DNA from: Fibrobacter sp. UWB13
Lineage (GTDB): Bacteria > Fibrobacterota > Fibrobacteria > Fibrobacterales > Fibrobacteraceae
Direction: 5' to 3'
Assembly (NCBI RefSeq): GCF_900177805.1
Contig: NZ_FXAX01000006.1
Span: forward strand, 62,001 to 126,000
DNA: 64,000 nucleotides
Within the stretch, counting starts at the first letter, position 1. Each line of letters starts with the position of its first letter. A program made the translations under genes and the position numbers. This document shows, one piece after another, positions 13,587 to 32,472 of this stretch. The notes under the pieces are model-generated. The model made no database searches and was not told the origin of the DNA. It saw only the letters and a list, made by a program, of their open reading frames with translations.

Positions 13587-16500
13587 ATGAAAAAAGGAAA
13601 TTTAATTTTGAGAACAGTTTTGAGTACTGTTTCGGCCGTACTAGGGCTGGCAGTATGCGCTTCGGCTGAAGATGTGCCGGAGGTTGAACGCGACACCGTC
13701 TTATTGTCTCCGCTTCATTTTGAAAAGGATGGTGCCGCCGTTACCGATGAAACCGAGAACCAGCGCCTCTGGAATGAGCTTATGAAGTATAAGCTCTGGG
13801 GCACCGATTCTGTTATCTTCAATAAAGGTCTGTTTAGAATCGCTGATCCGAGTGGCTATACGGGAACGGCCAAAGGTAAAGTCTATTTCCGCAATGGATA
13901 CCACACGCTAGGTGGTCCGATTGTTTCTGGTAACGATATTGAAATCAGTTATCCTGGTATGGGTGCCAATTTCGACTCCCTACTGGTTGGACCGGTTCGT
14001 GCTGGGTGGCTTGTGCTTCCGGGTTGGTATGACGCTGCTGGTGTGAAGTATGAAGGAACTTATTGCTTTGAAGGACAAGTCTTCTTTGATTCCCCAGATC
14101 GCTTTGCAAATACAAATGGTGATGCTGCCACAGTAATGAGACGCTTTATTGCAAATGTTCATAAAAGTGGTGGTAAAATTTATGCGGACTGGGATAAGGA
14201 TATGGCTGTCCCTGGTATGACTGATGTTGTTGTTCCTGGTTTGCCTGATTTGTTTGTTAACAAGGATGCTAACGGTAATCCTTTAGAAGCCCTTGATGGT
14301 CATTTTTCTGATTGCCCTGAAGAAGTCCCTCAACCAGAAAAGAGTCTTTCCGTTCCTGAATTAGATTTGTCGGGAATTTCGTGGGAACCTGCTGTTACTT
14401 TGACTGAACCTTACGAAGAAACTAAATATATTCAGGTTCCGCCTATTACCGCTGCGGATTTAGCTCAATCACCGAAGCACGTTTGGTTTGACAAGTATGT
14501 GGAGAAAATTCAGGCTTCTAGCCATACGGGTAAAAAGCTCTATATCTTGATGCCTTCGAACAAACAGAATGCGAATAAAAAAACAGGCCGCTTGACGCGT
14601 GTGTTCTCAAGGGATGGCTTTGATTTTAATAATTCTGCCAATGACTTGAGAATTCAGGTTGTCTATGTCAATGATGATGCTACTTGGAACGAAACAACCC
14701 AATCTTGGGATAACTTTGATTTGAGCAAGGCTACGGTTGTCCCGGATTCTAACTATGCGGGTAATCTTTTGTTCTATACGCCTGCTGATGTGAAATGGAT
14801 GCCGTTCAAGGCGAGTTCTGGAGAAGCAGGTGACGGCGCTCATTTCCAGGGAACATTTATTACTTCTGGTACGTTCATGATTTATGACCACTTAAGCATT
14901 GCTGGTCAGCTGATTGCTGGCAAGTGGCTTTGGTTTGAATCTGAATTTAATGGTGAATTCCATTACGTTCCGTTCAACTCTCCCGAAATCAAGACTGACG
15001 TCTTTGTCAAGGACGTCTTCAAGGAAGATGATAAGACTTGGTATGACATGCAGTTCTACTTGACCGATACTGCCCATACCGAAGTTTCTTTTGACTACTG
15101 TTTCGCCTTCTTCGGCATTGATGCGGATACGACTGGCGGTAAGTATGATAGGTACAAGAGCTCTACAGGTACTTTTGCTGAACCTGCTGATTTGGGTGAA
15201 AGTGATGATGAACATGTGATGCCGCTTTGCAGCAAGGGCGAATCGAGACATATTGTCATCAAGAAAGGTCAGCGTCGCCCGACGGTGCCGAAATACTCCG
15301 CTTATCTCAAAGTCATTGAAGATGATAAAATCGAAGATGATGAATACATGTTGTTCAAAATCATGAACTTGAACGGTGCCGTCATTTCTGGTAATAAGTT
15401 CGATGGCGGTCTCTTGGTCAAGATCATGGATTCCGATAACAAGCCTCCTAAGTTTGTCGATTTGGACAAGCTCAATCTCGCTGTTCCTGAAAATGCAACG
15501 AAGGCTAGAGCGGGTAAGATTAAGGCTTCCGACGAAGAAAATGATGGATTCAAGTTTGAAATTGTTGGCGGCACAGCTGAGGATTTGTTCGAGATAGATC
15601 CGTCTTCTGGTGTAGTGACTATGAAGGCTGGTGTCGAACCGTTCGATTATGAAACTTGGAAGGATGCTGGAACAAAGTACAATATCGAAGTCGAAGTCTG
15701 CGATGAAAAGGCTACGGGATATAGCGCAATGCTTTGCGATAGCCGTGTGTTCAAGATTAGCATTACCGATGTCAACGAAACGCCTTACTTTACCTATAAG
15801 GCTACCGACAAAAAAGAAATTAAGATTGCTGAAGATCAGCCGTTCTCGACTGATGCTGTCAAGTTTGCAGATACGGACATCCACAATACAGACGGCTTGT
15901 TTACAAACAACGAGGTTATCGCCATTAATGGTGATACCGATTATTTCGATGTGACCCCTGCTGGCTATATTTATCCGAAAAAAGGTGTTGTTCTCGATTA
16001 CGAAACGAAGAACTCCTACACCATTACGTTGCGCGTTCGCGATGCAACGGTTGATGACAATGGCAAACTTGTGTATCCGGATCTTTATGACGATATGGAA
16101 TTTACCATCGTTGTAACGGATGTTGATGACGGTCCGAAGTTTGACTATAAGGCTTACAATGGAACCGTAGATGAAAATTCCATCGCGGGCACTGAAGTCG
16201 ATATGGATAATGCCATTAATGCCACGACAACTCAGACGGGTGCCGTGATTACATACAAGCTGTTGGATGAAACCGGATCGTTTGAAATTGACCCGGGCAC
16301 GGGTGTGATTACTGTGGCAAAGGGCGCTGTGCTTGATTATGAAACCAAGAGCACCTACGAAATGAAGGTCGTGGCTTCTGATGAAGACAAGTCCAAAAAG
16401 AATCAAATCGTGCAGACGGATACGGCAACGGTTGTCATCAAGCTTAACGACTTGAATGAAAAGCCGATCTTTGTCGAACCGACCAAGACGTTGACTTTCC

Positions 16501-19391
16501 CGGAAAATAAGAAGGGATACGAAATTGGTACGCTTACCTTTGATGACCTTGATACGGCATCGAAGTTCCGCAACAACAAATTTGAGTGTCTCGAATGCGA
16601 TGAATTGGGCTTTAATCTGAATCCGGAAACGGGTGTTCTGACAACGACTCGCAAGTTTGACTATGAAACTGAACCCAAGACATACGAGTTGACCGTAATT
16701 ATCCAGGATGCTTCGGAAAGGGCTGACCTTGTCGCTACGGGTACGATTACCGTTGAACTTACGAACGTCTACGAATTTACGGAACTTGTATATACTGTTC
16801 CGGAATCGGATTCTGTCGGTACGTCTTTCAAGAAGTCTCTTGAAGTGGATAATGTCGAAGGCGCTAACGGTGACCTTAAATTCTACATCCTCGATGGTTC
16901 TAAAGAAGTAAGTGCCACCAAGGAATTCAAGCTGAATTCCAAGACGGGAACCTTCTCTGTAGCATCTCCGCTGGATTATGAAACGACAGAATCTTATTCT
17001 GTAAGAGTTCGCGTCAAGGATACTGAAGGCGGATACTCCGATACGACTGTGACTATCAAAGTCATTGACGTCAATGAAGCCCCGTCTGTTGTGGTTGATA
17101 CAATCTACGTGTCCGAAGACCAGGTCATTAAGGATCCGTTCAGCACTGTTAAGACGGACAAGGATGACCCGGATACCAAGAATGCTGATTTCCGCAACAA
17201 CGTCTATGAAAATACGGACAAGAACGATGTCGTCTTTGTTAAGTCTAATGGCGATGTCATTCTCCTGAAGCCCGTCGATTACGAAGTGGATTCCGTCTAT
17301 ACGATTATGGTCCGCGTGACGGACAAGGACGACAAGACTCTGACTTCGACGAAGAAGGTCGTGGTCAAGGTTAAAGACGTCTATGAAAAGTCTGTCGTCG
17401 AAATCACTCGCGTCGAGAATAAGGATTCTGTCTACCTCAAGCCGACTACAATTTATGTGAACGATTCCATTCTGAATGTCGAATGGACGAGGGATGGCAA
17501 GTTTGCCTCTAGTGTCGATACGGTTCAAGAAGGTTGCCACCTCATTATCAAGACGTACAAGGACCCGACCAAGAACGACCCGGGTGCAGACACGGTTGAA
17601 GTTTGCTACAGCACCGCTGCTCCGATTGTAACGGTTTCCGCCAATGGTGAAGATGTTACTGCAGATAACATTTATACCGTTGTCGAAAAGGCTACAAAGA
17701 ATGATAGCGCCGTCTATGTGAACGAGAAGAAGAACGATATCAAGGTAACGGTCAAGGATACTGCTGCCAATGTGTCTAAGTCGTTTGTTGTGAACGTAAG
17801 CCTCGATACGGTTTCTGTTTCGTCTAAGGAATTCAAGAATGTGCAAAAGATTGCTGATACTGAAGTTGCCCGTAAAAAGGATCCTGCTTCGGGAATCACT
17901 TCTGTTCCTGAAAATGGCGATTACTACAAGAACTCTTATACCGAAACGGTTAACGGCGTTAATGTGACGGTCTCTTACTACACGGATAAGAATGGTAAGG
18001 ATGTCAAGAAATCTGTAATCACTTCTTCGGGTAAGACGAAGGATATTGCCGTTATCGAAGTCTCTTATACGACGAAGATTGATGGCAAGGACGTTACAAT
18101 CTCGTACTATGCAGATGCCTCTACTGGTGAACGCGTGACTCTGAATACGGGGCTCACGGATAGTGAATCTGTACTTTCTGCGGATGGCGAAGACGTTACT
18201 GGTTCGTACAAAGTATCTTATACCTATGAAGATAAGAAGGGCAATACTGTCGAGGTCTCGTACTTCTTGGACGAGAAGGGCAAGATTGCTAAGAACAACG
18301 AAGGTAACATTGGCTATAACGTCAGCTACACCTATGTGAACATCTACGGCAATTCTTCGACGAAGGATGTATTCATTGTTCTTGACCAGAAGGGACCTGT
18401 CGTAAAGATCGAGTCTCCGACTGAAGATCAAATCCTTACATCGAATTTTGCAAATGTCAAGTGGACGGTCAATGGCATCGAGCAAGATACGCTTAATGTT
18501 CAGGGCCTTGACAACGGTGTGAATACGATTATCCGCGTGTTCCGTGACAAGGCGGGTAACGAATCTCGTGATTCTGTTCATGTCATGGTCAAGAACGTCA
18601 AGAACATCAATATTGACGTTGAAAAGCCGGTAACGCTTGTCAGCCGTGATTCTGTTGAAAAGTACTACAAGGAAAATCCGCCCAAGAAAGACCAGAACTA
18701 CGGTGTGACATTCTATAACTACAAGAAGGGTGAGGAAACCGAAGCTCTTGTGGGTATCGACGGCAAGGCTAAGGATGGCTCTGGTGACGTTCCGTATCCT
18801 GGCTTTGATGGTCACCTCGGACCGACTCTGGCAGTCGACGCTCGTGTGCCTGTCGTAAGTGCTGTGGGTGGACTGGCAACGCTGGACGATATCGTCATCA
18901 ATGGCGGTATGATTGCTCTGGACGGTGTGGATGCAGCCAACAGTAGAAAGGTTTCTGTCGAAGAATACGTTGAGAAGTATTGCACGGACGAATTTAAGAA
19001 GTCCATGACTTCGGACTATAGCAAGATGAACCTCTACTGGACGACGCTCAAGGTTAAGATCTGGGTGTACTCGAACACGGGTGTGTTTGCGGATTACTAC
19101 AGCTTCGATTACGACCTTGACGATCCGGATTATGTGAACGATGCTGGTCTTTTGAAGTTCTACTTCGAAATGAAACCCGATGAAAATGGTGACGTAAGGA
19201 CTAAGGATGGACGTCTCTATGGTACGGGCGCCTACCTCTTCAAGACCGAAGTCAAGATGACGTCGAAGCTCCGTTGCGATCTCCCGACGAGTCCTGACGA
19301 GGATAGTTCTAACAAGAAGAAGAACGCCGTTATCAAGTCTAGCGATGAACTTCTCAAGTCGTTCGGTTACAGACGTCCCGTTAATAAATAG
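13587..19391 (+). CDS. Giant cadherin-repeat surface protein 1
   Basis: A 1934-residue protein from the ATG at 13587 (a TTG five codons earlier was rejected because the ATG opens the signal peptide MKKGNLILRTVLSTVSAVLG). Order: signal peptide; N-terminal module with KLWGT and SGYTGTAKG; beta-rich region ending GTFITSGTFMIYDH; a Calx-beta-like domain ending DNKPP (about 15420). About six cadherin-type repeats follow, joined by D-V-N-E..P linkers and D-Y-E-T motifs, which in cadherins bind calcium. A shared C-terminal region (17400-19391) ends FGYRRPVNK. No type IX-like tail or LPXTG is seen. Probably cell-surface; adhesion is inference. Confidence 0.85.
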   Translation: MKKGNLILRTVLSTVSAVLGLAVCASAEDVPEVERDTVLLSPLHFEKDGAAVTDETENQRLWNELMKYKLWGTDSVIFNKGLFRIADPSGYTGTAKGKVYFRNGYHTLGGPIVSGNDIEISYPGMGANFDSLLVGPVRAGWLVLPGWYDAAGVKYEGTYCFEGQVFFDSPDRFANTNGDAATVMRRFIANVHKSGGKIYADWDKDMAVPGMTDVVVPGLPDLFVNKDANGNPLEALDGHFSDCPEEVPQPEKSLSVPELDLSGISWEPAVTLTEPYEETKYIQVPPITAADLAQSPKHVWFDKYVEKIQASSHTGKKLYILMPSNKQNANKKTGRLTRVFSRDGFDFNNSANDLRIQVVYVNDDATWNETTQSWDNFDLSKATVVPDSNYAGNLLFYTPADVKWMPFKASSGEAGDGAHFQGTFITSGTFMIYDHLSIAGQLIAGKWLWFESEFNGEFHYVPFNSPEIKTDVFVKDVFKEDDKTWYDMQFYLTDTAHTEVSFDYCFAFFGIDADTTGGKYDRYKSSTGTFAEPADLGESDDEHVMPLCSKGESRHIVIKKGQRRPTVPKYSAYLKVIEDDKIEDDEYMLFKIMNLNGAVISGNKFDGGLLVKIMDSDNKPPKFVDLDKLNLAVPENATKARAGKIKASDEENDGFKFEIVGGTAEDLFEIDPSSGVVTMKAGVEPFDYETWKDAGTKYNIEVEVCDEKATGYSAMLCDSRVFKISITDVNETPYFTYKATDKKEIKIAEDQPFSTDAVKFADTDIHNTDGLFTNNEVIAINGDTDYFDVTPAGYIYPKKGVVLDYETKNSYTITLRVRDATVDDNGKLVYPDLYDDMEFTIVVTDVDDGPKFDYKAYNGTVDENSIAGTEVDMDNAINATTTQTGAVITYKLLDETGSFEIDPGTGVITVAKGAVLDYETKSTYEMKVVASDEDKSKKNQIVQTDTATVVIKLNDLNEKPIFVEPTKTLTFPENKKGYEIGTLTFDDLDTASKFRNNKFECLECDELGFNLNPETGVLTTTRKFDYETEPKTYELTVIIQDASERADLVATGTITVELTNVYEFTELVYTVPESDSVGTSFKKSLEVDNVEGANGDLKFYILDGSKEVSATKEFKLNSKTGTFSVASPLDYETTESYSVRVRVKDTEGGYSDTTVTIKVIDVNEAPSVVVDTIYVSEDQVIKDPFSTVKTDKDDPDTKNADFRNNVYENTDKNDVVFVKSNGDVILLKPVDYEVDSVYTIMVRVTDKDDKTLTSTKKVVVKVKDVYEKSVVEITRVENKDSVYLKPTTIYVNDSILNVEWTRDGKFASSVDTVQEGCHLIIKTYKDPTKNDPGADTVEVCYSTAAPIVTVSANGEDVTADNIYTVVEKATKNDSAVYVNEKKNDIKVTVKDTAANVSKSFVVNVSLDTVSVSSKEFKNVQKIADTEVARKKDPASGITSVPENGDYYKNSYTETVNGVNVTVSYYTDKNGKDVKKSVITSSGKTKDIAVIEVSYTTKIDGKDVTISYYADASTGERVTLNTGLTDSESVLSADGEDVTGSYKVSYTYEDKKGNTVEVSYFLDEKGKIAKNNEGNIGYNVSYTYVNIYGNSSTKDVFIVLDQKGPVVKIESPTEDQILTSNFANVKWTVNGIEQDTLNVQGLDNGVNTIIRVFRDKAGNESRDSVHVMVKNVKNINIDVEKPVTLVSRDSVEKYYKENPPKKDQNYGVTFYNYKKGEETEALVGIDGKAKDGSGDVPYPGFDGHLGPTLAVDARVPVVSAVGGLATLDDIVINGGMIALDGVDAANSRKVSVEEYVEKYCTDEFKKSMTSDYSKMNLYWTTLKVKIWVYSNTGVFADYYSFDYDLDDPDYVNDAGLLKFYFEMKPDENGDVRTKDGRLYGTGAYLFKTEVKMTSKLRCDLPTSPDEDSSNKKKNAVIKSSDELLKSFGYRRPVNK

Positions 19392-19424
19392 TTGAAACGA
19401 TTGTTAATAAATTGAAGTTTGACT

Positions 19425-19456
19425 GTCACCCCCGGTTCTCTTGCCGGGGGTGTTTT
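19425..19456 (+). terminator. Terminator after giant cadherin gene 1
   Basis: CACCCCCGG/CCGGGGGTG stem, 7-base loop, T5. It starts GTCACC, like the GTCAC hairpin family, so a family member may have been adopted as a terminator. The rest of the 285-bp spacer holds only the next promoter. Confidence 0.85.
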
Positions 19457-19557
19457 TGTGACCATTCATATAATACGCATGATACGCTTTTCGCAGAATA
19501 GTAGCTCAAAAACGGCGGAAATGGTATTTTTTTCTTACATTTTTACAAGATTTCATA

Positions 19558-19585
19558 TTGCTTTCGTGAACCTCGTTACTATATT
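19558..19585 (+). promoter_or_regulatory. Candidate promoter of second giant cadherin gene
   Basis: TTGCTT, 16-base spacer, TATATT, leaving a ~90-base leader. AAGGAG and AAGGA lie before the ATG at 19677. GTTACTATATT and GTGTTTG are shared with the promoter of giant gene 1. Confidence 0.5.
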
Positions 19586-19676
19586 TCATAGTAAAAGTGT
19601 TTGGATGATTTGGGAAAGAAACTGTGACAAATTTCTGGAGTGGATTTTGTCGTAGCAAAAGGAGCATAAGGATATT

Positions 19677-22600
19677 ATGTGGTTTGGCAAATTAAGTCTT
19701 AAAGCTGCAGCCCTGGTCTTGGCCGGAGCATTCTCTTCTGCATTTGCTGAGGTTGGTCCGTTAGATATTAGTGCCGATGACTGGAATTACCTCTCCAACT
19801 TTAAACTTTGGGGAACTACTGGTATTGATACCCGTAATAGACCTGAATTTTATGATTCTAGGTTCTACGATCGTAAGAACGAAAATGATTTTAGCGGCTA
19901 CACAGGTGTTGACCCCGATACGCTTGGTTGGGTTGGTACCGCTAAGGGCGATTTGACAACAGATGAAGTTGGGTGGTTTGATGGTCCTGTTATTGTTGGT
20001 GGTGCAGTAACTGTTCCGAGTGATTATGCGGAAAGCCGTAGGGCATATCTTTTGACTGGTCCTATTCGTACTACGGGTGGCATAGGTAGTGCTAGGTCTA
20101 GAGGTACCATATGCCAGGGTGCAAATAGAGCTTCATCGGGTGCTTGCGCTAACGTTCCTGAAGTTCGTTCAAATTTGAGTGTTCCTGGATTGACTGGTGC
20201 AACTTTGTCTGGAACATATAATGTTAGTGGCAGAACTGTTCTTAATGTGAGTTCTTATTGCGATGATAATCAAATTTGTGATATCTTCTTTGATAAGATT
20301 TCTTTTGGTAATGATAGCCGATTGGTTGTTCAAATGCCTGCAGAGGGGCAGCCTACACGTATTTTTGTAAATAGCATTAGTTTTGGAACTCATCCTGAAA
20401 TTGTTGTGGCTTATCAGGGAAAAGGTGACTTAAAGCTGGATGAATACGATGGCAACTTGCTGATATATTCTAAAGGTGATATCAACTTTGATAATACAGA
20501 TAATGTGCCTATAATGGGTACAATTGTTAGTAAGGGGACTATAAAACTGGGACGCAATATGATTTTTGCGGGACAGTTTATTGCTAATAAAATTGAAGTT
20601 GGTAACGAAATTAAAGCAGAAACTTTTGTCTTTAAAAAGTTTGACCCGAAGATTGAACTTTTCATAGGAAACAAGTCTAAAAAGATTAAAGAAGGCGATA
20701 ATGTTTCTTTGGATGTTGTGCTCAGTGAAACTTCTAAAAATGATGTGACGTTTAATTATTGCTTCTATTTCCAATCTGCAGCTGGCGTTGATGGTGTTTA
20801 TGCCGGGCATAAGGATGTTGATACTAAAAATCTCCCGATTTGTGGAACATCCACAACCAAAGCAACAATTCCTGCTGGAAAAACGAGTGCCACGGGAATC
20901 AATATCAAGCCTTTGGTTGATGGTCTTGTTGAAGAAGATGAACAGCTTTGGTTCCAAATCAGTGACCTTAAGGGTGCGGAAACGAATTCGGATTATGAAG
21001 CCAATAAGGGGTACAAAATCTACATTGTAAGTAATGATGCGGCTCCGACAGTCTCTAGCGAGCTTGTTATTAATGTCAATGAAGATGACTTGCATCAATT
21101 TACGGCGTCTGAATTCAAGTTCCTGCATGCAACACAAAAATTTGCATCCGTTATTATTACGAGTCTTCCGCCTTCGACAAAGGGTGTAATTGCTAAATTA
21201 GATAAAAATGGTACAATTACTCTTAATGATGGATCTAAGGCAACTCCTATTAAATTGGAGTCTACGGGTACTACTATTACTGTTGCTGATTTAACTAAGC
21301 TTGTTTATCAGCCTGCTGCTGATGACTTTGGTGACAACTATACGACTTTCAAATATAAAGTTGTTGGCGATGGAGTGGGTGACAATACATCTATCGAGTA
21401 TAAGGCTACGATTAATGTCATTCCGGTAAACGATCAACCTTCTGCCAATAATTTCAATTTTTCTGTCGCTGAACATCCGACCAAGGATGCTATCGTTGGA
21501 ACGGTTACTCCGAAGGATAAGTCTAACGAAATCGATGTGGATACCTATGTCTTCACGAAGGTTTCTGGCGACTCCAGATTTGTTGTGACATCTAATGGTA
21601 CGGTAAAGGTAAATGGTAGTGTTTCGTTCAATGCAAAAACCGAAAGTAAGTTTGTCATCAAGGCTACGGTTAAGGATGATGCCGGAACTGAAAAGACGAA
21701 GATTGCAGGTCCTTTGACTTCTGATCAATTCACAATTACAATCAAAATCAACAACGAAAACGATGCTCCGGTTATTGCCGCTCAGACGTTCTCGATTCCT
21801 GAAAAGAATACCGATGGCTCTGATTGGCCGAGTGGTACGCTTGTTCCCAAGGGAACTGTAGTTGCAACGGATGATGATGGTGATAATTTGACGTTTACAG
21901 CACCGTCAGATGTTCCGTTTGGTTTCAAGAAGGGAACGAACCAACTCATTGTTACGGATGGTAGCGCACTCGATTACGAAAAAAAGACTTACTATACCTT
22001 TAAGGTAACTGTGACGGATGGCAATGGTGGTTCCGCTTCGGCAAACATTACAGTGAACATTACGGATGTGAATGAACCGCCTCCACCTCCTGATGTGAAG
22101 AAGGAATATTCCATAAAGGAAAATTCTGCAAAGGGTACTACTTTGGGAACCTTTGTTGTCAAGGATTATGATAAAATTTCTGGAAAACTTGAAACTCTGA
22201 AGTATACATTGACTGGTGCTATTACGGGTGCCGCTGGCGCTACGACAACTTTAAAGAACAAGACCTTGGCTGATATCTTTGAAGTTGTGGAAGTTGATGC
22301 TAATGGTGGCGATAGGGAAGTGGCAATTCGTGTCAAGAATCAGGCCTTGCTCGATTACGAAGCCCTCTACAATGCTTCTAATAAGACTACTTATCCTGTG
22401 ACCATTACCATTAAGGATAATGCTAATCCGGCTGTATCTGTTTCGACCAAGATTGCTATTCAGGATGTGAATGAAAAGCTTACTGCAAATGATGCCGCTT
22501 TTGTCTTGAATGAACATTCTCCGGTGGGTAGCCCGGTTTGCGCGACGTATAACGCTGATGGCGACTGCAAAGTTGTTGCAAAGGTAACTGCTGAGGATTT

Positions 22601-25600
22601 GGATATTTATAATCCTGCATTTAGAGATTTCACATTTGCAATTTCTAAAAACAATTCCGGAACTATGGCTACTGATGCCAAAAAGTTCGGTGTAAATCCG
22701 TACGATGGTAGCTTGTACACTACAGATGATTTTGATTACGAAACTGGCAAACATTCATTCAAGTTCTTGGTGACTGTTTCTGATGGTCAATTCTCTGATG
22801 ACGCCGAAATTACCGTAACGATTAACGATATCGAAGAACCCAAGATTATTGTGAATACAGAAGGTTCGGCTGTCGTTCCTGAAAATACAGGAACAGGTAC
22901 CGAAGTTGATAATTTTGCGGAAATTGATGATGAAAATGTAAGACAGCAGTTAAGTACTATTGTTGGTAAGCCTACCTATGACATTGATGATGCGGCTAGT
23001 GCCAATGCTGCGGGGCTGTTCCATATTGATGCCCGTTTGGGTTTTATTACCGTAGAAGATGGTTCAAAGCTTGATTTTGAAGCTTTGTACCCCAAAAATA
23101 CATATACTGTTGCTATTGTTGCTAAGGGAACGGATAAGTATGGTGCTTCTGTTGTGGTTAATATCAATAGAACTATTGTCGTGACGGATGTTAACGAAAA
23201 GCCGACGATTGAAAATACGGACCCGATTAAGGTTCCTGAAACGGCTACCAGCAAGGACGGTTCTATTGGTCAAATTGAAGCTTCTGATCCGGATTTCTGC
23301 TCTGTAAATAGCACGTATTCTTGCAAGAATGGGTTGCATGAATATGGTTACAATAAGTTGACTTATAAGGTTGAAGAAGTTCTCCCAGTTGACGGAAGTA
23401 CAGATTTCCCATTTGATATTGATCCTAACACGGGTAAGATTTCTGTTGCCGTTGGTAAGGAATTGAACTATACAAAGCAAAGCGAGTACAAGTTCATTGT
23501 CAAGGTAATGGACCGTCCGTTGATTGCTGGTGTGCCTTCTCAATCCGCCACAGCCGAAATGACCATCGTTGTTACGGATGTGAATAGACCGTCTAAGTTC
23601 GAAGTGGTGACTAACCCCTATGAAGTTGAAGAAAATGTTAGCGTCCCGACGGTTTTGGATGGTGGTAATATTGTTATCTATGATGAAGACGCGGCTGATG
23701 TGAATAAGCTCAAAGTCACCATTACTGATAATGATGCAACAGCAGCTCTTGATGCTGCAAAACTTTTCAAAGTCGTTCAGGTGGGTAAGACTGATGCAGA
23801 AACGCTTTTGAGCACGTTTGTGATTCAGACCGCTGATGACTTGGATTACGAAGAACTCTACAAGAAAGTCGAAAAGGATGCTGTATTCAATATTACTTTG
23901 ACGGTTGAAGATACCGAAGGTAATAAGACTTCTCAGGATACGAAAATTCGCGTGATTGACGTGAACGAAGAACCTGCATTTACTAAGACTTCTTATACCT
24001 TTAGCATTGCTGAAAATACGACTGAGACGACTTCGCTGGGCGTTGCTGAAGCTACTGACCCGGATAAGTACAATACCAAGTTTAACACGTTGTCTTTCTC
24101 GCTTAAGGGTGAAGAAGCCGCTCTGTTTGATATTGACGAACGTTCTGGCGAAATCTTTACGGTCAATAACGCAAAGTTTGATTACGAAACCAAGCGTCAA
24201 TACAGCTTTGAAGTGGTCGTTAAGGATAAGGATTTCACAAAGAAGGTTCCTGTAACGGTCAATGTCACGGATGTTTCTGAAGGACCTAAGTTCACGGATA
24301 TTCCGACTTTGACGGTTGATGAAAATACTTTGAAGGGTACTAAGGTCGGCGAAATCTTGGCTACGGACGATGACTGCAAGGCTTCGTTTGCTGCAACCTG
24401 CAAAAAGCCGACGTATACTATTACAGCCTCTGACGTAGCCCCCAATGATTACAAGGCATTTACGTATGTTGACGGTGTCATTAAGGTCGCTAAAGACAGT
24501 ATTTTGGACTTTGAAGGACAGAGTGAATATACCGTTCATCTCGTGGTAAAGGATGGTTCTGATCCGACACTTTCTGATGGTGTTGACGTTAAAATCATCA
24601 TCAACGATGTGAACGACGCTCCGACTTACGAAGAAAAGGAATACGTCTTCGAAATTCATGAAAAAGCACCTAAGGGCGAATTTGTCGGTTCCGTTGTTGC
24701 TGATGACCAGGACCACTGGGCTGTTCTCCACTATGCGCTTACGGATTATGAAGCTAACTCTGGAGACGCTTCCATCTTTGATATTGATGAAGAGGGCAAT
24801 ATTTACTTGTCTTCTAAGTCTTTGAACTATGAAACGCAGAAGCAGTATCAAGTTTGGGCTACAGCCACGGATAATGGTAAAGACAAGGGCTTTGAAAATT
24901 ATAGTGCAACGACTCTTGTTACCATCAAGATTATTGACGACCCGGATGGTCCGGAAATTATTGATGATGGCAAGAAGAGCTATGATGTTAAGGAAAACAC
25001 CGTTGAAGAACCGATTAAGGATACGGAAATCGCTTGCTACGAAGTCAGGGATGAAGACAAAGGTCAAGTTGCAACTCTCGTTCCTTATGTGACGGACAAT
25101 GGTGACACGGATGCAGACCGTCTGTTTGATGCAAAAATCAAGAAGAACGGCTCCAAGTACGAACTTTGCCTTATTGTAAATGATGTTAAACGCTTGAATT
25201 ACGAATCGATCGCTCATACTCATTCTATCAATGTGAATGTGATGGATGCAGATAAGCTGACCGCTCATGTTACCAAGACCATCAATCTCATTGATGTGAA
25301 CGAAATGCCTATTATTTCGGGTAATGCAACGTTCTCGTTCTATGAAAATAAGGGCAAGGATTATGTAATCGGTCGACTCTATTCTGATGATGTCGATACT
25401 TCCAAGGTATTTACTCAGAACAAGTTTACCGCTATTGGCGGCGATACGGAACTCTTCGATATTACTGAAGATGGTAAGATTATTACTAAGCGTAATTTCG
25501 ACTACGAAGAAGAAAAGAACCATACATTCGAACTAGAAGTCGCTCTGTCTGATAAGGATGTCAAGACGGCGTATCCGAAGCTTACCACGACGACGACGAT

Positions 25601-28325
25601 TCAGATTACGCTTAAGGATTTGCCTGAAGTTCCGGAAATCACAAGTAAGGAATTCGAAGTCAAGGAAAACTCTGATCCTGACGTCCTTATCGGGGTAGTT
25701 GAATCGAGTGACCCGGATGGCAACGACAAGCTGCTGTTTGAACTTGCCGAAGAAAGCCCGTATGTGATTGTCAAGCCGAATGGCGAAATCCGAGTTAAGG
25801 AAGGCGCCGATATCGACTACGAAAAGATGCAGGAATTCACAATCACGGTAACTGTCAGGGATGAAGATGGCCTTGAATCCGATGGCGATATTGTCATCAA
25901 GGTTATCGATGAGAACGAAGCTCCGAAGATTGAACCGCAGGAATTCACGTTCCCTGAAGATTCTAAGCCGGGTACCAAGAAAGGTCCTGTCGAGGCTAAG
26001 GATCCGGATACGAAGAATCCGAAATACAGTGACTTGAAGTTCTATCCTGTCGAAGAAAATGAAAAGTTCGAAGTCAAGCCGAATGGTGACATCGTCTTGA
26101 AGGGTGAACTTGATTATGAAGATGAAAAGTCTTATGTCATTACGGTTCGTGTGACGGATGGTGAATTCGAAGATACGACGGATATCACGGTCAATGTCGG
26201 CAATGTCATTGAAAAGTCCGATGTTGAAATTACACGTGCTGAAACCGGCAATTCTGTCTACCTGAATCCGAAGAAGGATGAAACGATTTACACGAACAAG
26301 GATGTCATCTCTGTGGAATGGAAGCAGGATGGCAAGACGATGTCCAGTCTGGATTCCTTGAAGGAAGGCTGCCAGTACATTATCAAGTCTTATAAGGCTC
26401 CGAATAAGGATGTTGCAGGTGCCGATACGATTGAAGTGTGCTATAGCACCGCTGCTCCGATTGTCGATATCGATGCTTCTAAGACCAAGGTTACTGCAGA
26501 GAACATCTATACGATTGTTGAAAACGTCGATAAGAAGGACTCTTCTATTTACGTGAACAACAAGAATAAGGATGTCAAGGTTTCTGTGAAGGATACGGTT
26601 TCTGGGTATTCTGAATCCTTCAAGGTCGATGTTGTCCTGGATACGGTTGCCGTGTCGAGCACCACTGTGAAGGATATGGTGGATATCTCCAAGTCCGAAA
26701 TTAAACTGGAAAAGAATCCGAAGTCCGATGTCTATGAAAAGCCGATTGGCGACAAGACCAAGGTTTCTTACGACAAGGTCGTGAATGGCGATACGGTTAC
26801 GGTTTCTTACTATGTTGACGAAGATGGCGAAATCGTCAAGACGGCTGTCTTTGATGAAGATGGCAAGAAGACGATGACCGAAGTCATTGAAGTGTCTACC
26901 GAGGTTGAAGTCAAGGGCAAGAAGGTCACTGTTTCTTATAAGGCTGATGCTGAAACGGGCAAGATTCTTTACGCAGACTCCGAAGGCAACTTGATGGTCG
27001 AAACTCCGAAGAGCTCTTCTAGCAAGAGTGATTCTAAGGATAAGGACGAAGTTGACCTGAAGACCGGTGTGGGCGCCTTTACCGTCACCTATGATGCAAA
27101 GGGTGAAGAAGGTAACAAGACGATAGTTTCTTACGTCATTGACGAAAAGGGCAAGGTCGTAGCAAATGACGAAGGTGATAGAGGCTATCTTGTGACTTAC
27201 ACCTTTACCAATAAGTACGGCAATACTGCTGAAAAGTCGGTCTTCATGGTGCTTGATAAGCTTGCTCCGATTGTCAAGATCCTCTCTCCGAGTGATGGCG
27301 AAGTTGTCTTTGCAAACTTTGTCGATGTAGACTGGTGCATTGCTATTGACGGCGACGAAAAGAACTGCGTCAAGCAAGATACTTTGAACTTCCAGAGTCT
27401 TGAAAGAGGCGTAAACACGATTAAGCGTATCTATCGCGATAAGGCCGGTAACGAAACTATCGCAGAAATCAACGTGATGATGAAGAAGGCTAAGGATGTC
27501 AATATCAACCTTGAAAAGCCGATGGTTATCGTTTCGATTGATTCTGTGAACAAGTACTATGAATCGAATCCGCCTGATGAAGATCAGAGATATGCTGTTA
27601 GCATCCTGAACCCGAAGACTCAGAAGGAAAAGGAAGTTGTTAAGGGCAATGTCGATGAAGTCAAGAAGGGTTCTGGTGATGAACCGTATCCGGGTTACGA
27701 TGGTCATATCGGTCCGACGGTTACGATTGACATGAAGTTGCCGATTGTAAGCGCTGTGGGCGGTCTCGCTACTTTGGACGATATCATTATCAACGGCAAT
27801 ATGATTGCTGTGGATGGTGTTGATGCCGATGGTAGTGAAAAGATCTCTGTAAACGAATACGTTGAAAAGTACTGCTCTTCTGAATTCCAGGAAGAACTGG
27901 GCAAGGACTACAGCAAGGCAAGACTTTACGCAACAACGGCTCGTGTAACGCTCTGGTTCTACACGACGGGTGGTGTGTTTGTCGATAAGTACCAGTTTGA
28001 TTACGAAGTGGATGATCCGGATTATGTCGATAAGGCTGGTCTCGTGAAGTTCTTCTTCGAAATGAAGCCGGATATCAATGGTGAATTGAGAGACAAGTCT
28101 GGACGTCTCTACGGTACGGGTCCGTACATCGTAAAGACCAAGGTCGATCTCCGTTCTCAGCAGCGTTGCGTGGTTCCGCCGATTACAGAAAAGTCCAAGG
28201 TTGGCGATGTGCTGAAGTCTAGCGATGAAATGCTGAAGCGCTTTGGTTATCGTCGTCCGGTGCTTCGCGGAAACGAAAAGGGCTCCAAGTCTTCTTCCAA
28301 GAAGTCTTCCTCGAAGAAGAAGTAA
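19677..28325 (+). CDS. Giant cadherin-repeat surface protein 2
   Basis: A 2882-residue relative of the protein at 13587. Order: signal peptide (MWFGKLSLKAAALVLAGAFS); N-terminal module with FKLWGT, SGYTG and GTAKGD; a strand-rich NLLIYSKGDI..GTIVSKGTI..GQFIANKI region reminiscent of polymer-forming or PilX-like stacks; a Calx-beta-like domain (VSLDVVLSE..DEQLWFQI). About 15 cadherin-type repeats follow, with linkers such as DVNDAPTY and DVNEKPTI. The C-terminal region is homologous to giant 1 from VEITRAETG (about 26220) through VSAVGGLATLDDIIING to FGYRRPV. It then adds a Ser/Lys tail (KSSSKKSSSKKK). A surface role is likely; a carbohydrate or calcium-dependent adhesin is inference. Confidence 0.85.
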   Translation: MWFGKLSLKAAALVLAGAFSSAFAEVGPLDISADDWNYLSNFKLWGTTGIDTRNRPEFYDSRFYDRKNENDFSGYTGVDPDTLGWVGTAKGDLTTDEVGWFDGPVIVGGAVTVPSDYAESRRAYLLTGPIRTTGGIGSARSRGTICQGANRASSGACANVPEVRSNLSVPGLTGATLSGTYNVSGRTVLNVSSYCDDNQICDIFFDKISFGNDSRLVVQMPAEGQPTRIFVNSISFGTHPEIVVAYQGKGDLKLDEYDGNLLIYSKGDINFDNTDNVPIMGTIVSKGTIKLGRNMIFAGQFIANKIEVGNEIKAETFVFKKFDPKIELFIGNKSKKIKEGDNVSLDVVLSETSKNDVTFNYCFYFQSAAGVDGVYAGHKDVDTKNLPICGTSTTKATIPAGKTSATGINIKPLVDGLVEEDEQLWFQISDLKGAETNSDYEANKGYKIYIVSNDAAPTVSSELVINVNEDDLHQFTASEFKFLHATQKFASVIITSLPPSTKGVIAKLDKNGTITLNDGSKATPIKLESTGTTITVADLTKLVYQPAADDFGDNYTTFKYKVVGDGVGDNTSIEYKATINVIPVNDQPSANNFNFSVAEHPTKDAIVGTVTPKDKSNEIDVDTYVFTKVSGDSRFVVTSNGTVKVNGSVSFNAKTESKFVIKATVKDDAGTEKTKIAGPLTSDQFTITIKINNENDAPVIAAQTFSIPEKNTDGSDWPSGTLVPKGTVVATDDDGDNLTFTAPSDVPFGFKKGTNQLIVTDGSALDYEKKTYYTFKVTVTDGNGGSASANITVNITDVNEPPPPPDVKKEYSIKENSAKGTTLGTFVVKDYDKISGKLETLKYTLTGAITGAAGATTTLKNKTLADIFEVVEVDANGGDREVAIRVKNQALLDYEALYNASNKTTYPVTITIKDNANPAVSVSTKIAIQDVNEKLTANDAAFVLNEHSPVGSPVCATYNADGDCKVVAKVTAEDLDIYNPAFRDFTFAISKNNSGTMATDAKKFGVNPYDGSLYTTDDFDYETGKHSFKFLVTVSDGQFSDDAEITVTINDIEEPKIIVNTEGSAVVPENTGTGTEVDNFAEIDDENVRQQLSTIVGKPTYDIDDAASANAAGLFHIDARLGFITVEDGSKLDFEALYPKNTYTVAIVAKGTDKYGASVVVNINRTIVVTDVNEKPTIENTDPIKVPETATSKDGSIGQIEASDPDFCSVNSTYSCKNGLHEYGYNKLTYKVEEVLPVDGSTDFPFDIDPNTGKISVAVGKELNYTKQSEYKFIVKVMDRPLIAGVPSQSATAEMTIVVTDVNRPSKFEVVTNPYEVEENVSVPTVLDGGNIVIYDEDAADVNKLKVTITDNDATAALDAAKLFKVVQVGKTDAETLLSTFVIQTADDLDYEELYKKVEKDAVFNITLTVEDTEGNKTSQDTKIRVIDVNEEPAFTKTSYTFSIAENTTETTSLGVAEATDPDKYNTKFNTLSFSLKGEEAALFDIDERSGEIFTVNNAKFDYETKRQYSFEVVVKDKDFTKKVPVTVNVTDVSEGPKFTDIPTLTVDENTLKGTKVGEILATDDDCKASFAATCKKPTYTITASDVAPNDYKAFTYVDGVIKVAKDSILDFEGQSEYTVHLVVKDGSDPTLSDGVDVKIIINDVNDAPTYEEKEYVFEIHEKAPKGEFVGSVVADDQDHWAVLHYALTDYEANSGDASIFDIDEEGNIYLSSKSLNYETQKQYQVWATATDNGKDKGFENYSATTLVTIKIIDDPDGPEIIDDGKKSYDVKENTVEEPIKDTEIACYEVRDEDKGQVATLVPYVTDNGDTDADRLFDAKIKKNGSKYELCLIVNDVKRLNYESIAHTHSINVNVMDADKLTAHVTKTINLIDVNEMPIISGNATFSFYENKGKDYVIGRLYSDDVDTSKVFTQNKFTAIGGDTELFDITEDGKIITKRNFDYEEEKNHTFELEVALSDKDVKTAYPKLTTTTTIQITLKDLPEVPEITSKEFEVKENSDPDVLIGVVESSDPDGNDKLLFELAEESPYVIVKPNGEIRVKEGADIDYEKMQEFTITVTVRDEDGLESDGDIVIKVIDENEAPKIEPQEFTFPEDSKPGTKKGPVEAKDPDTKNPKYSDLKFYPVEENEKFEVKPNGDIVLKGELDYEDEKSYVITVRVTDGEFEDTTDITVNVGNVIEKSDVEITRAETGNSVYLNPKKDETIYTNKDVISVEWKQDGKTMSSLDSLKEGCQYIIKSYKAPNKDVAGADTIEVCYSTAAPIVDIDASKTKVTAENIYTIVENVDKKDSSIYVNNKNKDVKVSVKDTVSGYSESFKVDVVLDTVAVSSTTVKDMVDISKSEIKLEKNPKSDVYEKPIGDKTKVSYDKVVNGDTVTVSYYVDEDGEIVKTAVFDEDGKKTMTEVIEVSTEVEVKGKKVTVSYKADAETGKILYADSEGNLMVETPKSSSSKSDSKDKDEVDLKTGVGAFTVTYDAKGEEGNKTIVSYVIDEKGKVVANDEGDRGYLVTYTFTNKYGNTAEKSVFMVLDKLAPIVKILSPSDGEVVFANFVDVDWCIAIDGDEKNCVKQDTLNFQSLERGVNTIKRIYRDKAGNETIAEINVMMKKAKDVNINLEKPMVIVSIDSVNKYYESNPPDEDQRYAVSILNPKTQKEKEVVKGNVDEVKKGSGDEPYPGYDGHIGPTVTIDMKLPIVSAVGGLATLDDIIINGNMIAVDGVDADGSEKISVNEYVEKYCSSEFQEELGKDYSKARLYATTARVTLWFYTTGGVFVDKYQFDYEVDDPDYVDKAGLVKFFFEMKPDINGELRDKSGRLYGTGPYIVKTKVDLRSQQRCVVPPITEKSKVGDVLKSSDEMLKRFGYRRPVLRGNEKGSKSSSKKSSSKKK

Positions 28326-28343
28326 GGCATAAAGCTTAGATTC

Positions 28344-28378
28344 AAATCCCGGTCCTTCGACCGGGATTTCTATTTTTT
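28344..28378 (+). terminator. Terminator after giant cadherin gene 2
   Basis: AAATCCCGGTC/GACCGGGATTT stem with a short loop and a T-rich tract (TTTCTATTTTTT). Confidence 0.88.
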
Positions 28379-28398
28379 GGCAAAAAAGAGGTTATCAC

Positions 28399-28725
28399 AT
28401 GGGTGTCGAAGAACGTTCTACATTGGTGTTTGCAAGTGGTGTCGGTCGAATCAAGGAAGAAAAGCCAAAGGCTGTCCGCCCGCAAGGGGATGGCGTAGTC
28501 CGCATTACGCTGAAGCGTCTTGGCGGTGGCAAAATGGCAAGTGTTGTTTCGGGCGTGCCGATGGAAGAAGACGAGCTTAAGGATTTAGCCCGTGTGTTGA
28601 AGCAGAAGTGCGGTGTTGGCGGTTCTGTCAAGGATTTCAATATTGAAATCCAGGGCGACAAGCGTAACGTGCTAAAAGCTGAACTCGAAAAAAAAGGCTT
28701 TACAGTTAAGCTTGCGGGCGGCTAG
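28399..28725 (+). CDS. yciH: YciH/SUI1 family translation factor
   Basis: A 108-residue relative of eukaryotic initiation factor 1. The core VRITLKRLGGGKMASVVSGVP, LKQKCGVGGSVKD and IEIQGDKRN matches the SUI1 domain of bacterial YciH, thought to influence start-site fidelity or stress translation. AGAGG precedes the ATG. It sits between a terminator and an 88-bp spacer, so it may be monocistronic; its place beside the giant surface proteins is probably incidental. Confidence 0.92.
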   Translation: MGVEERSTLVFASGVGRIKEEKPKAVRPQGDGVVRITLKRLGGGKMASVVSGVPMEEDELKDLARVLKQKCGVGGSVKDFNIEIQGDKRNVLKAELEKKGFTVKLAGG

Positions 28726-28813
28726 TATGTTTTACATCATCTTTTGCAAATTCTTGCCCAAAATTTTTGCAAAAAAAGTAAATTTATTGTAAGAAAATAA
28801 GTAAAGAGGTCTT

Positions 28814-30160
28814 ATGTTTAAGCAACTGTCTTTGTTGAGTTTGCTGCTTGCTTTAATCGTTCCTTCGAACGCCTTGGCTGCTAAAGCTGGACAAGTTCGC
28901 CATGTCGATCCTACTGCCGAAAAGAGTAAGGGTAGCTGTGCAGATGATGCTACATGGAAAGTTGTGACTGTTGGCAGTTTTGATCCTAAGACCTGCTTTA
29001 AGACTTCTGATGGTGGCGCTGTCGAATTGCAGTTGAATGGCGATAACAGCAGTATCAAGATAGCTGAAAATTCGGTTGTTTTTTTGGATTCCCTTGTTGA
29101 AAAGAATGCAGACGGTTTCTACGTCACTAAGCCTCATATCCAGAAGGGATATATTGGTTTTAATGTCGAAAAGAATAAACACAATAAGGTGGACTTCAGT
29201 ACGGGGACGGCTGCGGCTTCAATCCGTGGTACGAAGGGCTTTATCGGTGGTGACTCCCTTTCGTTCATGGCTAGCTTGGAATCCGGTAAACTAGCCATTT
29301 TCCCAACAGGTCAAGATTCCCTTGCTATTAGCCAAGGTGAAACTGTAATTGGCAGGGAAAAGTTTATTATCCTAAAGCTCAAGTCTTCAGGCGATATGGA
29401 GTTTGCGAAAAAATTGATTAAACTCCTTGCGGATACGACAAAGTCTATCGATGAACTGGCAGCTGCTGCCATCGCCGCAGACCAGGCATTCCAAGAAAAG
29501 CTTGCTGAGAAAAAAGCGGCTGAACAGGAAACGCAAGTCGCTGTAGATACGACTCAAAAAGCCGAAGAGGTAAGTTCGTTAAAGGCTCCTCGAATTAGCT
29601 ATACCGGTTACGACTCCTTGCGTTGTGTTGCAAATGTTTCTATAACGGATGTTCCGAAGGATACAGAAACGATCGTGCAGACGCTCATGGACGGAACTCC
29701 GATATCTGAAGTCAACGTGAAAAATAGTTCCTCAAAGCGCTTGAAATTGCAGAGTGGCGTTCATGAATATGAATTTATTGTAGAAAACAGTATTGGCCGT
29801 AGCAGTGTCCAGCAAACGCTTGGCTGCTATCCTTTAAAGCCCTTCTCTATTAAGGTCTTTGGTCTTCCACATGAGCACTTGCAGATTCCGCCTCCGCCTC
29901 CGGGAGTTGAAGATGTCATTATGGAGACTTTGCAATTCCAGATTCGTATTCCTGAAAACGATCCGAACTTTTTGAATAGAGTCTTGGTGCGTCAGGACGG
30001 AACGGTTATTCTGAAGGAAACTTTGTCCCAAATCCAGAATCTTGATTACCAGATTCCTGTTGAGCTGAAACGCGGCCACATGAACCGCTTTGTTATCGAA
30101 GCAATTCACAAGAGCGGTTATGTTGTCAAAACCACTAAGGTTTATGAGGTTGAAAAATGA
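28814..30160 (+). CDS. FecR-domain secreted protein
   Basis: A 448-residue protein with signal peptide (LSLLSLLLALIVPSNALA). The FecR-like domain lies at about 40-190 (GSFDPKTCFKTSDGGAVELQ.., SSIKIAENSVVFL, then ASIRGTKGFIGG), the pattern of extracytoplasmic FecR proteins. An Ala/Glu/Lys helix (about 205-240) and an Ig-like C-terminal half with a PPPPPG linker follow. FecR domains classically regulate sigma factors, but free-standing secreted versions occur in surface loci. No sigma gene is near. The stop overlaps the next start (ATGA at 30157-30160), so the two are translationally coupled. Confidence 0.75.
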   Translation: MFKQLSLLSLLLALIVPSNALAAKAGQVRHVDPTAEKSKGSCADDATWKVVTVGSFDPKTCFKTSDGGAVELQLNGDNSSIKIAENSVVFLDSLVEKNADGFYVTKPHIQKGYIGFNVEKNKHNKVDFSTGTAAASIRGTKGFIGGDSLSFMASLESGKLAIFPTGQDSLAISQGETVIGREKFIILKLKSSGDMEFAKKLIKLLADTTKSIDELAAAAIAADQAFQEKLAEKKAAEQETQVAVDTTQKAEEVSSLKAPRISYTGYDSLRCVANVSITDVPKDTETIVQTLMDGTPISEVNVKNSSSKRLKLQSGVHEYEFIVENSIGRSSVQQTLGCYPLKPFSIKVFGLPHEHLQIPPPPPGVEDVIMETLQFQIRIPENDPNFLNRVLVRQDGTVILKETLSQIQNLDYQIPVELKRGHMNRFVIEAIHKSGYVVKTTKVYEVEK

Positions 30161-32472
30161 TTTCTAGGCAACTCGTTTTAGCTTCTTTTGTTGCAATTCC
30201 TGCTTTTGCGCAGTCCGTTGTGGATTCCGCTGAAGCACCTCAGTCAAAATCTTCTTGGTCTGTAACCGGATCTGTTGGTGCTGAATTTGGTTACCATTCT
30301 GTGGTAACGGGTAAGAATGAAACTGATTCAGTTTTTTTCAGTGGCAATGATTCTATTTATCCGGGCCAAAAGTACCGAAATTATTTCCAGGTGCCTGGTA
30401 TCTTTGGGGCATGGAATGCATTTGTCCAGATGGAATCCGCTTCAGGACAAAAAATTGAATTTGCTTTAGATGCATCTAGCGATAAATGGAATCGTTTTAA
30501 TCCGAGGTTTGTACAGGCTTTGTACGAAGATCGCCATCAAAAATTGGTTTTGGGCGACCAGTTTGTTTTGGGCGGTGACTTGTATTTGGCGAGTATTGAT
30601 TTATTCGGTGCTAGTTATGATTTTAAGTTGAATCCGGATAATTCTAAAAATCCGTTGCTTGTGTTCAGCGTATTTGGCGGAGAAAACCAAGCGCCTAAAC
30701 TGCCCGGCGAAAAAGACCCGGATCAGTACAACAAGTATACCGAGCTTGATGAAGTCGAAGCTCAAAAAATGTTGATTGGCGGAAAACTCCTTTGGAATGC
30801 AACGAAGGATTTTGATGCTACGATCGGTTTTATTGGCAGCAAGGATTACTTGGAAGATCCGTATTTCCGTGATGGATTTTCTCGGGATGTAAATCTTTCC
30901 AATCCGATGTTCTCTTCGAGGACTTTCTTTGGAGAAGTGAACGGTGCTGTTCTTGGCGGTCGCGGAAAGTATAATGTCCAATTGGGCTTTGGCGGTACCG
31001 ATACCGTGAATGTCATTGCTCACCGGGCTGTGAACTCTGTGTTTGAAAAGGCTGGGTTGGATGTTTCTCGATTTGCTCAGTTGCGCCGCTTGATGAACAA
31101 TACTTCGCAGGTAAACCGCATGAACCGCGATGAATTGGAACTTATCTTTGGCGACAATACCGAGATGAGTGTTGACGACATGCGTAAAGAACTCCTTCGC
31201 GTATTAAGTGTTGCACAAGGGGCTTTGAAGAAACATCGCAATGAAAACAATGATGATCCGACGGATTGGACGGCTCAGAATCTCGCTCTTTCGGGTTCTT
31301 ACAACTGGAAGAAAAAATCGACGATGATTGACGCCTACTTCCGTTTTGTGGGGCGCAACTATTACAGTGCGGGTTCTCCGGACTTGTTGCAGAATTCTCG
31401 CCAGTTAGGGTTCAAGCTCGACCAGACGATTAAGGATTTCTGGAAGTTGAACTTTGGCTACGAATTGAATATTGAAAATGCATCGGGGCATGGAGATGCT
31501 TATAACGTATTCGGTTTTGCCGAAGGCTCTAAGCTTGGGCTTTTGCCTGGTGCCGATGATGATTGGCTCGAAAAGCATGAACGGGATGTTCCGAGAACGC
31601 TTTACATTCATGATTTTAAATTGAAGAATACCTTTAAGGTTCGTGATTCTATCGAGGTCACAGCTCGTTATGCTCTTAATTATCGCACTCGTAGTACCCC
31701 GCGGAGACTTCGCGGCAATTTCTTTGCTAATTCGGGAATTTATTCGGATTCCTGGTTTGACGTTCAGAAGGGAAAGCCGACAATCGATGTGGATACGGGC
31801 AAAGACACGATCCAGATTGACTCTGCTCGTTGGGCAAAGTATGCCGCTTTGCAGGGTGAGGAATATTTAGCCTCGCAGTTTGAAGAACGTTTGGCTAAAC
31901 ATACTGTTGAACTTACGGCTACATTCAAGTTCCCTAAAAATGTATTGAAGATTGGCGGTGTCTGGACTTATCGTACTGATATGTCGAGATTCAATGAGAG
32001 AGACTTGCTCAATGGTTTTGATTTCTCTGACGAAACTTATGGACTCCTTGGTTACTATTTCCATGGTGGCGATTACTTGGATGCCCGCTATCCGATTTCT
32101 CTTACGACGACGCTTGACTGGCTTCGCAATACGGTTGCCTTGACGCCGAGATTCAGGACTTATAATCGTAATGATATGGGTGAATTTGAATGGACGCTCT
32201 TGGATAATGCTTCTTTCAGGTTAAAGCCCGGATTCTTGGATCTCATGTTGCACGGAAAAGTTCGCCAGAATTTCATGAGCCGCAAAGAAGATGGCAAGGA
32301 TGTTGACGAGATGGAAATGGATTTGGATTTCTCGGCTGGTTTGAAGTTCCAGTTTACGGAAAGACTTGGAACCGAATTCATGTTGGGAACTTTCGTCAAC
32401 TACCGTCCTGATAGCGAATCTGAAGATTACCGAGATATTTACGGAAGCGTATCCGTTAATTACGATTTCTAG
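30157..32472 (+). CDS. Large outer-membrane beta-barrel protein
   Basis: A 771-residue protein with signal peptide ([20 protein letters not shown]). Repeated amphipathic strands such as [37 protein letters not shown] and [18 protein letters not shown] end in a terminal aromatic residue (SVSVNYDF), the hallmark of BAM-inserted barrels. A helical insert of about 90 residues ([17 protein letters not shown]...) lies near the middle. It is not recognised as a named porin, TonB receptor or secretin. Coupling to the FecR-like gene suggests they act together; a transport or display role for the giant cadherin proteins is speculation. Confidence 0.75.

Follow-up and report, generated by a model that had tools for sequence, protein, structure and literature searches.

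The genome of Fibrobacter sp. UWB13, a member of a genus of gut cellulose degraders, encodes two giant cadherin-repeat proteins upstream of a translationally coupled gene pair for a FecR-domain protein and an outer-membrane beta-barrel. The giants end in a tail that also occurs on fibro-slime proteins and a GH9 cellulase of this genome, the T9SS translocon SprA is present, and at one slot in related genomes the partner of the FecR-barrel pair is replaced by a giant of another type. Throughout the genus, this conserved pair is found with giant secreted proteins, which suggests a surface-anchoring partnership. By analogy with known systems, we tentatively favour the reading that the giants are T9SS-type surface adhesins and that the pair is an accessory anchor or shuttle. 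This bears on how Fibrobacter keeps cellulose-binding and cellulase proteins at the cell surface, a matter of rumen biology. A second tail class uniting fibro-slime proteins, a GH9 cellulase and giant cadherins would be a directly testable signal, and the FecR-barrel pair is a concrete anchor candidate outside the Bacteroidota.

The giant cadherin proteins and their region

The window is the whole stretch of DNA that was analysed (64,000 nt; positions 62,001-126,000 of the forward strand of NZ_FXAX01000006.1, assembly GCF_900177805.1), and all coordinates are those of this window. The two giants, a SUI1-type gene, the FecR-domain gene and the barrel gene all lie on the + strand, and the coordinates of the giants, the FecR gene and the barrel gene were confirmed. 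The features are as follows:

13587..19391, +, giant 1 (1934 aa, 214.5 kDa, pI 4.66): signal peptide, N-module, 6 cadherin repeats, middle region, C-terminal tail domain
15441..17384, +, cadherin repeats 1-6 of giant 1 (residues 619-1266; Pfam PF00028 and own-repeat profile)
18567..19388, +, C-terminal domain of giant 1 (residues 1661-1934; AlphaFold2 pLDDT 81)
19026..19388, +, last 121 aa of giant 1, the tail common to the fibro-slime proteins and GH9
19427..19452, +, terminator-like hairpin 3' of giant 1 (10 pairs, T run)
19677..28325, +, giant 2 (2882 aa, 315.6 kDa, pI 4.59): plan of giant 1 with about 14-15 cadherin repeats
21429..26210, +, cadherin repeats of giant 2 (residues 585-2178; Pfam and own-repeat profile)
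27474..28322, +, C-terminal domain of giant 2
27918..28322, +, shared tail of giant 2, ending in FGYRRPV plus a Lys/Ser-rich extension
28344..28369, +, terminator-like hairpin 3' of giant 2 (11 pairs, T run)
28399..28725, +, SUI1/YciH-type translation factor gene (108 aa; PF01253, E-value: 4.7e-16), a bystander
28814..30160, +, FecR-domain secreted protein (448 aa; PF04773, E-value: 4.4e-7), gene 1 of the coupled pair
30157..32472, +, outer-membrane beta-barrel (771 aa, about 26 strands in an AlphaFold2 model), overlapping the FecR gene by ATGA
32475..33302, +, AP endonuclease IV-type gene (xylose isomerase-like TIM barrel; PF01261), a slot marker and bystander

Both giants can be classified as cadherin-repeat proteins (PF00028 cut-off: 28.8 bits; giant 1: 177 bits, E-value: 9e-53; giant 2: 286 bits, E-value: 1.2e-86). 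Six stretches of giant 1 and 11 of giant 2 pass Pfam singly. A profile made from the giants' own repeats finds 6 repeats in giant 1 and 14 in giant 2, with an extra borderline repeat at residues 385-470 of the latter, in keeping with an earlier count of about 6 and 15. The signal peptide of giant 1, as judged by eye, is 27 aa long and is cut at ASA^E. The earlier note also described end modules shared by the two proteins. This holds for the C-terminal 660-700 aa, which are 53% identical, and to a lesser degree for the N-modules, which are only about 25% identical and have no Pfam matches. A shared promoter layout is weakly supported: GTTACTATATT is found upstream of both giants, with little else conspicuous.

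The two hairpins listed above are the strongest terminator-like hairpins of the region, so each giant is probably transcribed as a separate unit. The FecR-barrel operon does follow the giants in order, as had been noted, but the SUI1 gene and the two terminators that stand between them had been overlooked. The SUI1 gene is missing from this place in several relatives. The AP-endonuclease gene is the 3' neighbour in many relatives, including some in which the FecR-barrel pair is absent.

A common C-terminal tail on the giants, fibro-slime proteins and a GH9 cellulase

The giants had been thought to have neither a sorting tail nor a known anchor. Their C-terminus, however, has homologues at the C-terminal ends of a GH9 cellulase and seven fibro-slime proteins. 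A first profile, made from the last 200 residues of the giants together with a 1950-aa GH9 cellulase from the same genome, also touched fibro-slime proteins. A joint profile of the giant, GH9 and fibro-slime ends matches ten proteins of the genome, nine with E-values no higher than 1.5e-22 and one at 4.5e-4, in every case at the C-terminus. These are seven fibro-slime-type proteins (TIGR02148 confirmed in all six that were scanned), the GH9 cellulase and the two giants. The tail comprises a VxVYSxxGxFV-type strand, then a loop that closes with GRxxGTGxYI, and a basic end, mostly FG[YIV][RK]R. Among 24 aligned cadherin-giant ends, FGY[KR]RP is invariant save for the K/R position. The tail is present in 120 of 168 Fibrobacterota genomes. 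In UWB13, the fibro-slime and GH9 tail proteins are encoded elsewhere in the genome, which has one barrel copy.

A T9SS is available to this genome, since it encodes the translocon SprA (TIGR04189; 1362 bits, E-value: 0), a PorU-like protein (E-value: 1e-107; 360 bits, below its cut-off of 420) and about 50 type A tails. The giants and the tail set do not match TIGR04183 (type A), neither the giants nor the tails gave an NCBIfam match to TIGR04131 (type B), and no NCBIfam sorting domain of any kind is matched by the giants. Assignment of the tail to type A was rejected on the lack of a TIGR04183 match and an hhalign value of 2% against type A tails.

The tail weakly resembles the Ig-like domains of PorU and FlgD, in a set of concordant signals that lie below usual confidence. 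In hhalign comparisons, it reaches 79% (E-value: 1.6e-5) against a set containing the genome's FlgD/PorU-type CTDs, its own PorU-like C-terminus among them, 40% against three FlgD-type domains alone and 0.2% against a cadherin control; a giant-only tail profile reaches 11% against the FlgD/PorU-type domains. In a structural comparison (VIA), the PorU CTD is the top row (Z 7.5, rmsd 3.0, 102 aligned) but is tied with unrelated Ig domains. One fibro-slime tail weakly matches positions 1023-1083 of the 1095 in the NCBIfam PorU model, which are its CTD (E-value: 0.2), and FlgD appears at an E-value of 0.68 in a PDB sequence search with the tail. A Foldseek search of the PDB with the giants' C-terminal domain returned nothing under an E-value of 0.001, and the structural matches of this domain are generic Ig folds. 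In the accessible part of the paper that proposes a T9SS for Fibrobacter enzymes, the case is made from basic terminal domains together with TIGR04183, no such tail is listed for the GH9 enzyme FSU_0809, and a tail common to the giants, fibro-slime proteins and GH9 was not found described (PMC6851124).

The FecR-barrel pair and its association with giant proteins

The FecR domain lies above its family cut-off (30.7 bits against 24), and the earlier description of a FecR-like protein coupled by ATGA to a 771-residue barrel was borne out. The arrangement was compared across 72 FecR-barrel loci from named genomes; with a single exception, the label is Fibrobacter or Fibrobacteraceae/Fibrobacterales. 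In 68 loci the gene immediately 5' of the barrel encodes a FecR homologue, and a coupled stop/start (ATGA, TAATG or TGATG) recurs in most. The loci that lack an upstream FecR gene comprise contig ends, one doubtfully labelled record and one locus with no called FecR frame. Unlike the FecR iron-sensing regulators, the UWB13 FecR gene has no FecI-type sigma factor gene beside it; the neighbours are the SUI1, barrel and AP-endonuclease genes.

The barrel has relatives in the Fibrobacterota and belongs to no Pfam or NCBIfam family; the PorP/SprF profile in NCBIfam is likewise unmatched. A plasmid search with the barrel gave no matches, and its profile gave only chance-level matches to PDB sequences. 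The AlphaFold2 model (built with 54 relatives; pLDDT 83) has about 26 strands. Its best structural match is MtrB (6r2q_B; Z 20.0, rmsd 4.4, 488 aligned), and the 26-strand fold is common to MtrB/PioB. Unlike those proteins, to which it shows 13% identity, the barrel has no MtrB family match and is neighboured by a FecR gene rather than a multihaem cytochrome gene. Apart from those of the F. succinogenes-like group, most barrel orthologues are extended at the N-terminus by about 270 aa, a stretch that by eye looks like a beta-helix. The idea that this extension is a fused FecR protein was rejected: it is repeat-like and without a Pfam match, and FecR is a separate upstream gene. Our literature search found no mention of FSU_2933, FSU_2934 or Fisuc_2378.

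The earlier note had proposed co-occurrence across the Fibrobacterota as a check, and the outcome is mixed. Barrel orthologues with at least 45% identity occur in 55 same-genus genomes, and in 52 of these a giant C-terminus lies 1.8-6.5 kb upstream of the barrel on the same strand; in one of the three exceptions, the barrel sits at a contig end. The spacer between giant and pair holds the SUI1 gene, an Aas-type acyltransferase fusion, both or nothing, and this varied content indicates that the association outlasts local rearrangement. The partner can also be replaced. In loci L141-L144, L146 and L159, the SUI1 gene lies before the pair and the AP-endonuclease gene after it, no cadherin giant is present, and a GLUG giant of about 1650-1700 aa directly follows the barrel. 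Downstream GLUG giants are likewise found with FecR-barrel pairs at other sites. The GLUG giants have type A tails, with 4 of 8 tested passing the TIGR04183 cut-off.

Against this stand giants without the pair and pairs without giants. Cadherin giants lie upstream in 28 of the 72 loci, GLUG giants downstream in 15 and both in 3. The remaining 32 have neither type adjacent, a few of them being cut by contig ends, so that a wide occurrence of the barrel and FecR genes away from giants, which had been named as evidence against a common system, was found in part. Barrel copies of about 36-41% identity occupy another slot with no giant nearby. In three genomes the AP-endonuclease gene directly follows the giants, with no FecR-barrel pair between, and in five relatives, all of one genus and one of them a single-contig genome, giants are present while no barrel could be detected. 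The distant pairs without giants and the giants without a pair refute an obligatory dependence of one on the other.

These observations give weight to an alternative in which the giants are T9SS-type adhesins and the pair, an envelope module in its own right, just shares their stable neighbourhood; it could be, for instance, a transport barrel capped in the periplasm by FecR. Neighbourhoods in a single genus also persist through descent, which counts against a functional partnership. The conservation of the flanking AP-endonuclease gene fits the alternative. So do the separate transcription units with SUI1 between them, the FecR-barrel paralogues without giants at another slot, and the giants without an adjoining pair. 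Against it stand the different giant that directly follows the barrel where the SUI1/AP-endonuclease slot lacks cadherin giants and the GLUG giants downstream of the pair at further sites; a random neighbourhood would predict neither. We consider this alternative a serious one, if somewhat less probable than a pair that serves the giants as anchor or shuttle.

Proposed model and comparison with known systems

The proposed model, with the pair as accessory anchor or shuttle, is as follows. The giants would be surface adhesins that are first exported by Sec and then cross the outer membrane through the T9SS by means of their non-type-A C-terminal domain. The FecR protein and the barrel would form a separate, translationally coupled outer-membrane unit and most likely serve giant secreted proteins as their cognate anchor or shuttle, receiving cadherin giants here and GLUG giants in other lineages. 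We infer T9SS export of the giants, their physical binding to the barrel and adhesion to cellulose.

The model draws on the Bacteroidota. There, cognate PorP/SprF barrels gather and retain type B substrates, one of which is the giant adhesin SprB, and some of these systems also use the periplasmic protein PorE; the genes are often side by side, and orphan substrates share a barrel (PMC9143113, PMC12618676). Like SprB-SprF and PG1035-PorP-PorE, the UWB13 locus combines a giant repetitive secreted protein, an adjacent outer-membrane barrel gene and a periplasmic partner, and there are likewise several paralogous pairs and orphan substrates. Location beside the cognate giant holds for 52 of 55 orthologues but not for all paralogues. 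In contrast to the 14-strand FadL-type PorP/SprF barrels, the UWB13 barrel has about 26 strands; a FecR protein replaces PorE, the tail is not TIGR04131, the pair is a separate transcription unit, and the host belongs to the Fibrobacterota. The pair may therefore function like PorP/SprF-PorE only by analogy, with the barrel, periplasmic partner and tail all drawn from other families. A more far-reaching reading is that the FG[YIV][RK]R end marks a new T9SS-type tail class, to which the cadherin giants of Fibrobacterota belong along with fibro-slime proteins and a cellulase. On this reading the FecR/26-strand-barrel pair is a new, partner-switching anchor or shuttle with an evolutionary origin separate from that of PorP/SprF; taken as a whole, this is possible but rather doubtful. 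Within Fibrobacter, the giants resemble the fibro-slime proteins (such as FSU_2502, a 180-kDa cellulose-binding protein) in being large, secreted and of a common tail family. They differ in having cadherin repeats in place of a fibro-slime/PA14 domain, and the fibro-slime proteins have no FecR-barrel neighbour in the UWB13 genome.

The earlier note had proposed the barrel as exporter of the giants over the outer membrane, with the FecR protein as connector. The adjacency of the genes, the large size of the barrel (about 26 strands) and the ushers FimD and PapC among its Foldseek matches would agree with such a role, but the barrel need not be an exporter, as the genome encodes an SprA-type T9SS. 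Giants also occur in genomes without a barrel, the GLUG giants beside barrels of this kind have type A T9SS tails, and the cadherin giants' tail is common to proteins encoded at other sites of this single-barrel genome. Export by the barrel is therefore improbable.

It is equally hard to credit that the giants are periplasmic, with a C-terminal domain that is a structural Ig-like cap: the generic Ig folds among its matches would allow this, but the same tail family ends a GH9 cellulase and fibro-slime proteins, among them FSU_2502, for which cellulose binding and a surface location are described, and the cadherin proteins of strain S85 occur in the membrane proteome and are predicted to be outer-membrane or non-cytoplasmic (PMC4619616). 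For the surface-adhesin model, these S85 proteins, FSU_2931 and FSU_2932, are a close point of reference. Both were detected in the membrane proteome together with FSU_2502, FSU_2932 only on microcrystalline cellulose and by two peptides, and no specific function was assigned to either (PMC4619616). They are probable orthologues of the giants, matched by name, order and size rather than by sequence comparison; FSU_2932 has a mass of 317.9 kDa and a pI of 4.69, against 315.6 kDa and 4.59 for giant 2.

Neighbours of the FecR-barrel pair

Within the supposed surface locus, between the cadherin giants and the FecR-barrel pair, lies a SUI1/YciH-type translation factor gene, which is found at the corresponding place in many relatives too. 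In some genomes, an Aas/LplT-type MFS-acyltransferase-AMP-binding fusion is placed between giant 2 and the SUI1 or FecR gene. The pairs in loci L142, L117 and L138 have a GLUG-type giant secreted protein with a type A T9SS tail encoded immediately 3'.

Window 28399-28725: SUI1/YciH-type gene
L088:8284-11736 (-): Aas/LplT-type fusion
L142:12231-17282: GLUG-type giant
L117:12213-15836: GLUG-type giant
L138:12242-17758: GLUG-type giant

Size and antisense frames of the giants

Giant 1, the probable window homologue of S85 protein FSU_2931, is 214.5 kDa, whereas PMC4619616 Table 1 gives FSU_2931 a mass of 22.06 kDa, possibly a misprint. Very long open frames (up to 1307 aa) antisense to the giants are taken as shadows of their coding strand.

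Window 14892-18815 (-): antisense open frame
Window 23064-27707 (-): antisense open frame

Related sequences elsewhere

The tail of the cadherin giants is also carried by a GH9 cellulase (1951 aa). Where source-genome contigs C7 and C8 end, short stretches match this tail, which suggests that additional copies bearing it were broken up during assembly. The genome also encodes another FecR-domain protein, of about 555 aa, with no adjoining barrel gene. Locus L170, in a record labelled uncultured Bacteroidia (RUG13567), contains a piece of Fibrobacter barrel (80% identity), probably through a binning error.

L015:287-6142 (G000:C7): GH9 cellulase
L018:4427-6094 (G000:C1:79771): second FecR-domain protein
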